Of a stretch of DNA of 64,000 bases, positions 41,515 to 44,956 are shown piece after piece (position 1 is the stretch's first letter; every line of letters begins with the position of its first letter). Origin of the DNA: Jeongeupia sp. HS-3 (GTDB taxonomy: Bacteria > Pseudomonadota > Gammaproteobacteria > Burkholderiales > Chitinibacteraceae); NCBI RefSeq assembly GCF_015140455.1, contig NZ_AP024094.1:1054001-1118000 (forward strand). The letters run 5' to 3'. The position numbers and the translations under genes are program-made. A model generated the notes under the pieces. That model made no database searches. It was given only the letters and a program-made list of their open reading frames with translations, and was not told where the DNA came from.

Positions 41515-41535
41515 ATGTTTGTCTAGGTGGTGTCG

Positions 41536-41910
41536 TCACAAGATGCACGCCCAGATCGCAATGCAGCGAATCTGGACTGCCGCCAGGAATGACGCCGCAT
41601 TCTTGGCATAGCGCGTGGCGATGCCTCGCCAGCGTTTGAGCTGCAAAAACGCATTTTCAACCAGATGCCGGTGGCGATACAGCGCCGCATCGTGTTCACG
41701 CGGCGCCTTACGGTTGCGGCGCGACGGAATCACCGTTCTCATGCCTTGCGCCGAGGCCTGAGCAACGATGGCGTCGCTGTCATAGCCACGATCAGCCAGC
41801 AGGTATTCCGCGCTCAAGCCGTCAATCAACGCGCCGCCCTGGGTGCAGTCCGCCGTCGTGCCCGAGGTCACCAAGACCCGCACCGGCATGCCGTGCGCGT
41901 CCACCGCCAA
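41536..41910 (-). CDS. IS5-family transposase, C-terminal part (orfB), copy 1
   Basis: The second transposase frame (124 aa from a TTG; the frame is open back to about 41929, inside orfA). It holds the second catalytic aspartate (LADRGYDSDAI) and the glutamate (HRHLVENAFLQLKRW) of the DDE triad, typical of the IS5/IS427 group. The first Asp is in orfA. The frame is shifted +1 relative to orfA, so a full-length enzyme needs a frameshift. Its TGA lies inside the terminal inverted repeat. It differs from copy 2 by Cys instead of Arg near the end (IWACIL). Confidence 0.85.
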   Translation of the reverse strand: MAVDAHGMPVRVLVTSGTTADCTQGGALIDGLSAEYLLADRGYDSDAIVAQASAQGMRTVIPSRRNRKAPREHDAALYRHRHLVENAFLQLKRWRGIATRYAKNAASFLAAVQIRCIAIWACIL

Positions 41911-41917
41911 GTGCAGC

Positions 41918-42319
41918 TTACTGTTTAGCCCCTTTGGTCACCCCCATTGCCTGATTGCCGCCGCGTGCGCCGGCGGCATGCGGATGCACCTTGGCATGCG
42001 TGGCGTCGATCATCAGCCATTCGAAATCCGGATTGGTGATCAGCGCTTCAAGCAGGTGTGCCCAGACGTCCTTGTCACGCCAGCGACAAAAGCGGCGGTG
42101 GGTGTTCTTCCAGTCGCCATAATCGGGCGGCAAATCGCGCCATGGGGCGCCGGTACGCAAAATCCAGAACACGGCGTTGAGGAACAGGCGGTTATCTCTG
42201 GCCCGGCCGCCCCAGGCGCCGTGGCGACCGGGCAGGAGCGGTTCGAGCAAAAGCCACGTTTGATCAGGAAGGTCGTGGCGGCGGTGTACCAGGCGCTTGG
42301 TCGGCGGTGTGCTTGTCAT
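41918..42319 (-). CDS. IS5-family transposase, N-terminal part (orfA), copy 1
   Basis: The first transposase frame (133 aa from the ATG at 42319). The DUF4096-type N-terminal domain reads LPDQTWLLLEPLLPGR, then NAVFWILRTGAPWRDLPPDYG. The first catalytic aspartate is in MIDATHAKVHPHAAG. The frame ends VTKGAKQ-stop where related elements continue TKGGLNxKLHLAVD; that continuation is in orfB. It differs from copy 2 by Asp instead of Gly (RDKDVWAH). Confidence 0.88.
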   Translation of the reverse strand: MTSTPPTKRLVHRRHDLPDQTWLLLEPLLPGRHGAWGGRARDNRLFLNAVFWILRTGAPWRDLPPDYGDWKNTHRRFCRWRDKDVWAHLLEALITNPDFEWLMIDATHAKVHPHAAGARGGNQAMGVTKGAKQ

Positions 42320-42428
42320 GGCGGCAGCATACACACTCGCCAATCACTCGTGACGACACCATCTAGCAGGCGTAGCTAGGGTCAAACGTATACTGGTGCA
42401 ATTAACAGTCAGACTTTGGTATTGATTC

Positions 42429-43421
42429 ATGCCTTTACCACCCTCAGTTGATACACCCACCCCAGCAGCTCTTACCATCTGCGCTTGGTCTTCATGGGAA
42501 GCCGCCCCGCGCGACTGTTTTGATGCCTGGCTGGCTTTGCCAGTCGTCAAGGGCAGGGGGCGCTTCCGCAGTTCGTCGGCCGATGTCTATCGCGCGCAAT
42601 GGCATAAATTCATCGCCTGGCTCGAGGCGAATCAACTCAGCTTGCGGCAATTGAGCGCCGCACAGCTGGTGCAATTTCTCGGCAGCCTCACCGACGTCAA
42701 GCGCCAGCAGCGCGACCGCTATTTGCGCATCATTGAGCGTATTTTCGATTTCCTGGCCGGAGAGACGCCGGATCCCTCGAATCCGGCTCGCGTGGCGATT
42801 CGCCTGCAAGCGGAGCAGTGGCGCCGGGTTCATTCGAACGACGATACCGGGTTCTTATCGCGCAACGAGTGCGCCGATTTGTGCGCATGGTTGGCAGTAC
42901 CAGTGGGGGCGGACACCGAATTGGGCCTCTGGCGACAACAGCGTGACCGTGCCCTGGTTGCGGTATTGCTCGGCGCCGGCTTGAAGCTGGCGGAAGCTCA
43001 GCGACTGACCATCGATAGCCTCGCGTTTTTAACGCCATGTATTCTGAGCCTCAAACGGGATGACCAACCGACACGGCAGGTGGCGCTACAAGCCTTTGCA
43101 GTGCCGCACTTAAATGGGTGGCTGATTCAGCGTCAGCATGCCGGCACGGCAGGTGATCTGGTTTTTCCCGCCGATCTTGATGGCCGGATGATGCACCCGG
43201 CCACTATTCTACGGGCGACGCGAAGCCAGGTTGCCGCATCAGGCATTGCTACATTGCACCCCGAGCGGATCAGCCCGCAAACCCTGCGCAACAGCTTTGC
43301 CGCAAGCCTGTTCGAGCAGGGTGAGGCCATGACGTCCGTAGCGCGGCAATTGGGCTTTGTTCATTCTGTTTCTGCCGAGCGCTTGCACACGGCCTGGCTG
43401 GCGTGGTGCGCACGGGAATGA
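42429..43421 (+). CDS. Tyrosine-recombinase-fold protein lacking catalytic residues
   Basis: A 330-residue protein with the layout of XerC/phage integrases: an N-terminal core-binding SAM-like domain (~35-130, RFRSSSADVYRAQWHKFIAWL) and a C-terminal catalytic fold (~140-325). The active-site positions are mostly changed. Box I reads GAGLKLAEAQRL (Lys for the first Arg). The HxxR box reads SPQTLRNSFA (His replaced, Arg kept). The LGH box reads LGFVHS. No tyrosine exists in the C-terminal domain; a His occupies the expected nucleophile position (SAERLHTAW). It is probably not a recombinase but may still bind DNA. No ribosome-binding site is seen before the ATG, and an IS lies 66 bp upstream. 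Confidence 0.8.
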   Translation: MPLPPSVDTPTPAALTICAWSSWEAAPRDCFDAWLALPVVKGRGRFRSSSADVYRAQWHKFIAWLEANQLSLRQLSAAQLVQFLGSLTDVKRQQRDRYLRIIERIFDFLAGETPDPSNPARVAIRLQAEQWRRVHSNDDTGFLSRNECADLCAWLAVPVGADTELGLWRQQRDRALVAVLLGAGLKLAEAQRLTIDSLAFLTPCILSLKRDDQPTRQVALQAFAVPHLNGWLIQRQHAGTAGDLVFPADLDGRMMHPATILRATRSQVAASGIATLHPERISPQTLRNSFAASLFEQGEAMTSVARQLGFVHSVSAERLHTAWLAWCARE

Positions 43422-43477
43422 CGCCATCAGGCGGAGCATGATCACTTACAATGTCCGGCTGGTTTCCGGAGTTCTTC

Positions 43478-44956
43478 ATGCTTGATCTGCTTTTTGGTAT
43501 TACAACCCTGTTGGTGCTCCTCGCCGGTGTCGTGGTGGTGGTGCGACTGCAGCAACTCGCCAATACCCAGCAAGACGTTCTCGAGCTGTTATCCCAAGAG
43601 CTGGAAGACAAGCACAGGCAAATGCTGGGCGACCTGCATGCCGGACTGGCAAGGCAGACCGAATCGCAGCATGCGGCGATGGCGCAGCATGGCAGCCTGC
43701 TGAACGAGGCGATCAACCGTTCCGCCGGGCAGTTGCGTGATGCAATGGGCGAATCCTTCGATCGCCTGCGCACGGGTGTCAGTACCGAACTCAAGGATAC
43801 CCGCGAAGCGCTGCATCGGCTTTCCAGTACGCAAAGTGAATCGCTGTCGGTCATGCGTTTGTCACTGACCGCGACACTATCGGAAACCCGCGAGCTGATG
43901 CTCAAGCAACTGGCCGACATCGCCGCCGAGCTCAAGGGCAAGCAGGATGCCTTGCGTGAGGATGTGCTGGTCAAGCTCTCGACCATGCTGGCCGAACAAT
44001 CGAAGCGTGAAATGGAACAGATCCAGGCACTGCTTGCGTCGACCTCGCTGCAACTCACCACTACGGTCGGCGAGCTGACCAAGACCGCCGATACCCGCCT
44101 GGCGGAAATCTCCGGCAAGGTGAACGAACGGCTCGACGAAGGCTTCAAGAAGACCAATGAGACCTTTGCCAACGTGATGGCGCGGCTGGCAACGATCGAC
44201 GAGGCGCAAAAGAAAATCGACGGGCTGACCACCAATGTCATCAGTCTGCAGGAGCTGCTCGGCGACAAGCGTTCGCGCGGCGCGTTTGGCGAGGTGCAGC
44301 TGGAACATCTGGTGCGCAATGTGCTGCCGGCACAGGTGTATGAGTTTCAGGCGACCCTGTCGAACGGCACCCGTGCCGATTGCCTGTTGCGCCTACCCGA
44401 GCCGACCGGTCTGGTCGCCGTCGACGCCAAGTTTCCGCTGGAAAACTATCACCGGATGTTCGATCCGAGCGCCGATAAGGTTGTCGCAACGCGCGCCTTC
44501 AAGGCCGACATCAAAAAGCATGTCGACGATATTTCCGGCAAATACATCATCGCCAATGAGACGGCCGATGGTGCGGTGATGTTTGTGCCGGCCGAGGCCG
44601 TGTTTGCCGAAATCCACGCCTATCACCCGGAACTGGTGCAGCATGCGATGAGCCGGCGCGTGTGGATAGTCTCGCCGACGACACTGATGGCCGTGCTCAA
44701 TACTGCGCGAGCGGTGATCAAGGACGTGGAAACCCGCAAGCAGGTTCACATCATCAAAGAGGCGCTGGGCAAGCTCTCGCAGGAGTTCAGCCGCTTCGAC
44801 GATCGAATGAAAAAGCTGGCGACGCATATACGACAGGCGAACGATGATGTGCAGAATGTGGCGATCACCAGCGAGAAGATTTCCCGCCGCTTTGTCGAGA
44901 TCGAGCAGGTGAAGCTTGATGGGGATGGCGGCGATGAGGCGAGAATCGGCGCATAA
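43478..44956 (+). CDS. rmuC: DNA recombination protein RmuC
   Basis: RmuC (492 aa) is an inner-membrane-anchored, PD-(D/E)XK-like nuclease-related protein that limits DNA inversions at short repeats in E. coli. An N-terminal TM (~3-24) is followed by a long coiled coil (~25-240) and the RmuC domain (~250-450: SRGAFGEVQLEHLVRNVLP, AVDAKFPLENYHRM, IANETADGAVMFVPAEAVFAE). The ATG at 43478 is chosen because GGAG lies six bases before it. It is 56 bp downstream of the degenerate integrase gene on the same strand, so the two may be cotranscribed. Confidence 0.93.
   Translation: MLDLLFGITTLLVLLAGVVVVVRLQQLANTQQDVLELLSQELEDKHRQMLGDLHAGLARQTESQHAAMAQHGSLLNEAINRSAGQLRDAMGESFDRLRTGVSTELKDTREALHRLSSTQSESLSVMRLSLTATLSETRELMLKQLADIAAELKGKQDALREDVLVKLSTMLAEQSKREMEQIQALLASTSLQLTTTVGELTKTADTRLAEISGKVNERLDEGFKKTNETFANVMARLATIDEAQKKIDGLTTNVISLQELLGDKRSRGAFGEVQLEHLVRNVLPAQVYEFQATLSNGTRADCLLRLPEPTGLVAVDAKFPLENYHRMFDPSADKVVATRAFKADIKKHVDDISGKYIIANETADGAVMFVPAEAVFAEIHAYHPELVQHAMSRRVWIVSPTTLMAVLNTARAVIKDVETRKQVHIIKEALGKLSQEFSRFDDRMKKLATHIRQANDDVQNVAITSEKISRRFVEIEQVKLDGDGGDEARIGA

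Follow-up and report, generated by a model that had tools for sequence, protein, structure and literature searches.

The window, a 64,000-nucleotide stretch of the Jeongeupia sp. HS-3 genome, contains a gene for a protein with the tyrosine recombinase fold in which nearly all catalytic residues are replaced, and the same replacements recur in about 100 relatives, so that the pattern exceeds chance. Mainly from comparison of sequences, we propose with moderate confidence that this dead recombinase has been retained as a repressor that binds DNA and probably regulates its own gene, in the manner of MrpR of SPbeta or SroF of phi3T. The 15-bp element found before the gene is new here. Table 1 gives the coordinates of the features.

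Table 1 Features at the dead recombinase locus (window positions; residues for the protein domains)
Feature	Position	Strand	Basis or detail
IS5-family element, transposase in two frames	41527..42362	-	CTAG at 41523-41526 and 42363-42366
TATACT, -10-like box before the leader element	42389..42394	+	by eye
Leader element TGCAATTAACAGTCA, candidate operator	42397..42411	+	exact match to the element before plasmid relatives
Dead tyrosine recombinase-fold protein, 330 aa	42429..43421	+	ORF; Pfam/NCBIfam; AlphaFold fold matches; conserved substitutions
Core-binding domain of this protein	residues ~20-136
Catalytic-fold domain of this protein	residues ~140-330
Decayed inverted inner copy of the element	43005..43019	-	codons 193-197: LTIDS in the window, LTV[NS]C on plasmids
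rmuC (RmuC family)	43451..44956	+	ORF; Pfam; congener comparison

Replaced catalytic residues in the window protein and its relatives

The Pfam Phage_integrase model matches residues 171-313 of the window protein (E 4.7e-12). An AlphaFold model computed from a 39-sequence input (pLDDT 85.6, pTM 0.65) has the two-domain recombinase fold without the full catalytic set, and a fold search with it returned XerA (Z 21.9), XerH (Z 20.3) and Cre (Z 18.0), with the repressors SroF (Z 14.5), YopR (Z 13.7) and MrpR (Z 12.7) further down the list. XerD, XerH and XerA are the best sequence and fold relatives of the window protein; however, the catalytic R, H, H and Y are replaced in the family, and the scores of the window protein against the XerD and XerC equivalog models lie far under the cut-offs. 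The two-domain architecture that the initial annotation had read from the sequence is thus confirmed by the model and the fold search, and its residue assignments were also borne out. Lys186 occupies the column of the box-I Arg, Gln284 that of the His in HxxR, and the second His is absent, with Phe310 in LGF (LGFVHS) where Xer proteins have LGH. Leu319, nine residues past Phe310, stands at the expected Tyr, and the C-terminal domain has no Tyr at all. In addition, Asn288 takes the place of the usual His (LRN for LRH). Set against the catalytic R-K-H-R-H/W-Y series, the window protein has K, Q, R, F and L at the R, H, R, H and Y columns, the second Arg (Arg287) alone being retained; no conserved beta-hairpin Lys could be recognised by eye in the family alignment. 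For comparison, eight other integrases of the same genome were tried, six of which were picked up by the script, and all six aligned controls, XerC and XerD among them, have the R and the H..R. The 330-codon frame is open, as had been claimed.

The substitutions were counted in 101 rows scoring at least 100 bits, which comprise 98 distinct sequences. All 101 strong relatives have Lys at the box-I column, keep the Arg of HxxR and read LRN, with Asn, for LRH. The HxxR His column holds Gln in 95 rows, His in five and Arg in one; at the second His column, His occurs in none (F 91, L 6, M 2, V 1, Y 1), and the Tyr column is dominated by Leu (L 95, M 2, V 2, F 1, Y 1). The window protein bears the family signature of box-I Lys, TLRN, no second His and no Tyr, and agrees with its relatives at 53 of the 59 columns whose conservation in the other 101 rows reaches 95 % or more, a comparison that is the sole constraint test on the window copy itself. 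Because these substitutions recur across the strong relatives, the loss of the catalytic residues is old and inherited. The initial annotation had held that relatives retaining the RHRHY residues would mark the gene as a decaying integrase; the strong relatives do not retain them.

Five members (L054, L079, L086, L101 and L112) keep the HxxR His (SPHTLRN) with the other catalytic positions changed. Among relatives scoring under 100 bits there are true XerC/XerD-like proteins as well as other diverged groups, and some of these have retained the Tyr and lost the His residues. In the more distant relatives L124, L126, L127, L131 and L136 the Tyr is present (by eye), Arg stands at the HxxR His and the second His is absent; these possibly represent intermediates in the loss of catalysis.

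The Burkholderia-clade orthologues are under purifying selection, with a median dN/dS of 0.18 among 79 sequences (1303 of 3081 pairs, dS 0.1-1.2). The genome collection contains one genome per species, so that frame counts compare species, and the frame is unbroken in 79 of the 80 retained loci. These observations, together with the conserved substitutions, uphold the earlier claim that the gene is not in simple decay, and a decaying integrase was ruled out as a reading of the family because about 100 relatives share the substitutions and the Burkholderia clade is under purifying selection. A premature stop is present in the gene of Candidatus Burkholderia verschuerenii (L050), and on a plasmid of the insect symbiont Vallotia the gene is present as two ORFs (L187, 7965-8938); both of these bacteria are symbionts.

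Plasmids, second chromosomes and the window locus

Members of the family are carried by Burkholderiales plasmids and second chromosomes and by some plasmids of Pseudomonas and Stenotrophomonas. A tblastn search matched 77 of 72,556 plasmid records (E 1e-3), with identity up to 45 %, and in those listed records that carry annotation the gene is called integrase or hypothetical protein. The phage collection gave no match to the window protein at E 1e-3, and a phage gene was rejected on this ground. With the window protein alone as the query, the scan of the genome collection found nothing; the alignment-based scan yielded 250 loci, 80 of which were retained. At E 1e-20, 19 of the 399 genomes of the order match, the window's own counted, and among 369 genomes of the class a match of this kind occurs in the window's own genome only; in the 36 other genomes of the window's taxonomic family no match is better than E 7.7e-7. 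The window copy, being chromosomal, is a stray in a family of plasmid and second-chromosome genes.

In the window, 2014 bp lie between a phytase-like gene and the conserved start of rmuC, and most of this distance is taken up by the dead recombinase gene and the IS5 element, which is 836 bp long and ends about 35 bp before the leader element. In two congeners the same interval measures 107 and 104 bp, with no integrase gene between. As the initial annotation had pointed out, the gene is located directly upstream of rmuC on the same strand, at a distance of 29 bp from the listed ORF or 56 bp from the start used by the congeners. The linkage is local, since both congeners lack the gene at this site and rmuC is absent by tblastn from all 124 related loci; a meaningful linkage was therefore not substantiated, and a functional link to rmuC was rejected.

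In Burkholderia, Paraburkholderia, Caballeronia and Trinickia the gene is found in one conserved neighbourhood. Among 91 neighbourhoods (L031-L115 and L141-L146; the counts are limited by the flanks and the names come from one representative), KfrA-family genes are present in 80, RepA in 72, ParB in 68 and ParA in 52. KfrA, a plasmid maintenance regulator that adjoins the family gene at second-chromosome origins, belongs to a separate family (PF11740) from the window protein, and a search of the window's genome for KfrA_N gave no match. The available text of one study reports RepA-type iterons for the second chromosome of B. cenocepacia (PMC4948915). In all 11 Burkholderia-type loci scanned, a count made with no chance control, iterons of this type occur no more than about 100 bp from the 3' end of the gene, and the main iteron array of these loci is situated apart from them, between KfrA and repA. 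There are one or two 3'-end iterons per locus, for example at 9092 in L074, at 9086 and 9110 in L056 and at 7980 in L048. The scan found none in two Cupriavidus loci or in the window. Given the rep and par genes, the published iteron type and the records of large replicons, of which one bears the title chromosome 2, we take these loci to be second-chromosome origins. Among 29 other loci, tblastn located KfrA at three loci from genomes of the order (with short flanks), and RepA, ParB and ParA together in a Massilia plasmid only; none of the four was found at the window or at the two Cupriavidus second-chromosome loci. The linkage to rep, par and KfrA genes is strong in one clade and not general. 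The words 'integrase' and 'recombinase' have no occurrence in the main text, as far as it was available, of PMC10809759, PMC4993015, PMC4948915 and PMC8729776.

The leader element and its inverted copy

The 15-bp element TGCARYTAACAGTCA is found upstream of the gene in the window and in one group of plasmid members; the Burkholderia-clade version of it is GCAACTAACGGA. Counted by eye, 12 of 29 diverse leaders, that of the window included, carry the element in this orientation, and it is absent in this orientation from the other 17, including those of the Cupriavidus second chromosome, Azospira and Sulfuricystis; the element is not general across the family. The core scores at least 8 of 9 in 72 of 106 members. 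Among the 80 loci of the Burkholderia clade, 53 have the exact core GCAAYTAAC in the leader and 15 have it at the inner site, and 21 of the 27 loci missing the exact leader core are titled Caballeronia. Upstream of the gene in two distant relatives, L190 and L136, a core resembling it, GAAACTAACRGACA, is oriented the other way. No complete promoter was identified when the window was scanned for sigma-70 sites.

Nine plasmid records, selected because their leaders carry the element, were scanned whole, allowing up to two mismatches. Each of these leader-selected plasmids has an inverted inner copy (at most two mismatches) about 0.6 kb into the gene, at the LTV[NS]C codons, and all 15 matches with 0-1 mismatch stand at the dead recombinase gene; the remaining 10 matches all have two mismatches, compared to 14 for the reversed control. 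A replicon-wide site was rejected after scans of the nine plasmids and the window's genome with the plasmid-type element. It was rejected as well for the Burkholderia-type element, which in five genomes or records produced seven matches, three of them at the gene by position and four, each with one mismatch, elsewhere, compared to 10 in the reversed control; two of the five had no match that could be placed at the gene. The window's genome contains one intergenic copy with one mismatch (G000 C1 1128851-1128865), flanked by two ORFs whose products resemble, by our reading, a PTS permease and an ABC-F protein. About one such match is expected by chance, by our estimate, and we therefore attach no meaning to it.

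The leader and inner copies track each other, matching on average at 14.9 of 17 bases within a lineage versus 12.75 between lineages (eight plasmids and L125). None of 20000 permutations reached the observed value, in a test that ignores kinship and is inflated by three sister pairs among the nine rows. In L125 both copies bear the same departure, GCAATTAACGGAAAGC. When the leader was allowed to pair freely along the gene, the best pairing fell at the inner site in 14 of 35 loci and elsewhere in 21, the window included. The leader of the window matches its own inner site at 11 of 17 bases: the inner copy has drifted.

At the inner site of the Burkholderia clade, AGT encodes Ser196 in 57 of 57 sequences and ATT encodes Ile195 in 36 of 38; of 263 three-codon windows, the one at this site has the highest rank for rare codons. 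Residues 122-126 come close behind, so that the codon signal is suggestive only. Residues 124 (GCT) and 282 (AGT) show stronger single-column conservation of rare codons in L036-L115. We do not claim that the element is related to the XerD arm of dif, because a search of the window's genome with a dif consensus, three mismatches allowed, found nothing.

A putative self-repressor and its alternatives

A DNA-binding role that needs no strand cleavage, which the initial annotation had regarded as possible, appears likely because the fold is kept, the catalytic residues are lost family-wide and the Burkholderia clade is under purifying selection. Precedents are found among phages. MrpR/YopR of SPbeta and SroF of phi3T have the two-domain fold in common with the window protein (Z 12.7-14.5); SroF we take to be a tyrosine recombinase-fold repressor from the title of its PDB entry. 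In structural alignment the window protein is 12-14 % identical to MrpR and SroF, and neither of them is among its six profile matches. As described in the available text on MrpR, this protein is a DNA-binding repressor without recombination activity that represses via a repeated element, and its catalytic residues are replaced, as in the window family; MrpR nevertheless keeps Tyr304 and Lys169, whereas the window family has lost the Tyr (PMC10516654). Furthermore, MrpR is the master repressor of a phage, whereas the genes of the window family belong to plasmids and second chromosomes, and the phage collection holds no match to them. By analogy, the family most likely works like the MrpR kind of protein, an identity of 12-14 % being no proof of kinship.

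Under the model that we favour, a Xer-type tyrosine recombinase would have lost strand cleavage long ago and would since have been maintained, in plasmids and second chromosomes, as a protein that binds specific DNA sequences. We infer that the protein itself binds the 15-bp element. The leader copy, close to where transcription starts, and the inverted one some 0.6 kb into the gene would serve as two operators, perhaps acting by looping, and the protein would thereby limit its own synthesis; the window copy has kept the leader element and most of the conserved residues and has lost the inner site. A self-repressing pair of this kind would explain why the element is near the start, why it is restricted to its own gene and why both copies change jointly, and also why the leader of the window stays although its partner has drifted. 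The family appears to be a separate, large case of dead recombinases outside phages, with the 15-bp element as a ready candidate target site, and it marks a conserved gene at the second-chromosome origin of Burkholderia-type bacteria. At its most ambitious, and here we would give it little credence, the proposal is that a whole family of dead Xer-type proteins forms a permanent and so far overlooked component of secondary-replicon biology: the protein would bind the paired inverted element within its own gene, adjust its level by looping this element and, in Burkholderia-type genomes, be fixed at the second-chromosome origin, where its level would feed into replication or partition control.

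The element could also be bound by another protein, take part in RNA pairing or be a relic recombination site. If the 5' leader of the mRNA base-paired with codons 193-198 and so regulated translation or decay, the element would act as RNA and not as an operator. This is a rather improbable alternative. It has in its favour the perfect complementarity over 12-20 bases in L048, L141, L142, L135, L186, L034, L143, L125 and L144 and the concerted departure of both arms in L125, and would thus account for the joint change; it does not account for the window, where the leader is unchanged though the partner has decayed, or for much of the Burkholderia clade, where about eight core bases match and the flanks differ, and the opposite orientation of the similar core before the gene in the distant L136 and L190 also speaks against it. 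That the copies are inversion sites, be they relics or still active, where a different recombinase inverts the segment containing the 5' part of the gene, is very unlikely: the two copies are inverted and near-identical, as such sites would be, but the protein lacks the nucleophile.

Two further alternatives concern the role of the protein and the state of the window copy rather than the chemistry of the element. The neighbourhood leaves room for a broader part in maintaining the second chromosome, and the protein might serve the replicon and not only itself, as a DNA-binding part of a replication or partition module at the second-chromosome origin. We consider this unlikely, even though the KfrA, RepA, ParB and ParA neighbours, the iterons at the 3' end of the gene (again with no chance control) and the distant Massilia plasmid member, which adjoins rep and parAB genes, point towards it. 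The synteny may reflect just vertical inheritance of one region; the Massilia plasmid stands alone among the 29 other loci in having RepA, ParB and ParA, and the two Cupriavidus second-chromosome loci have none; the element core is not scattered over the origin, since the leader accounts for 53 of its 72 matches in 80 loci and the inner site for 15, with four elsewhere; and a Tn-seq study of Caballeronia insecticola names, in the available text, the rep and par genes and not the dead recombinase gene (PMC10809759). The window copy might be non-functional baggage of an insertion in an otherwise functional family, a reading that we regard as doubtful, yet a serious possibility. Consistent with baggage are the lack of any match better than E 7.7e-7 in the other genomes of the taxonomic family, the absence of the gene at this place in the two congeners, the IS5 element close to the leader, the lost inner site and the position of the window copy on a long end branch. 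Against it, the frame of the window copy is open, the 53 conserved columns are retained, and its leader element is exact.
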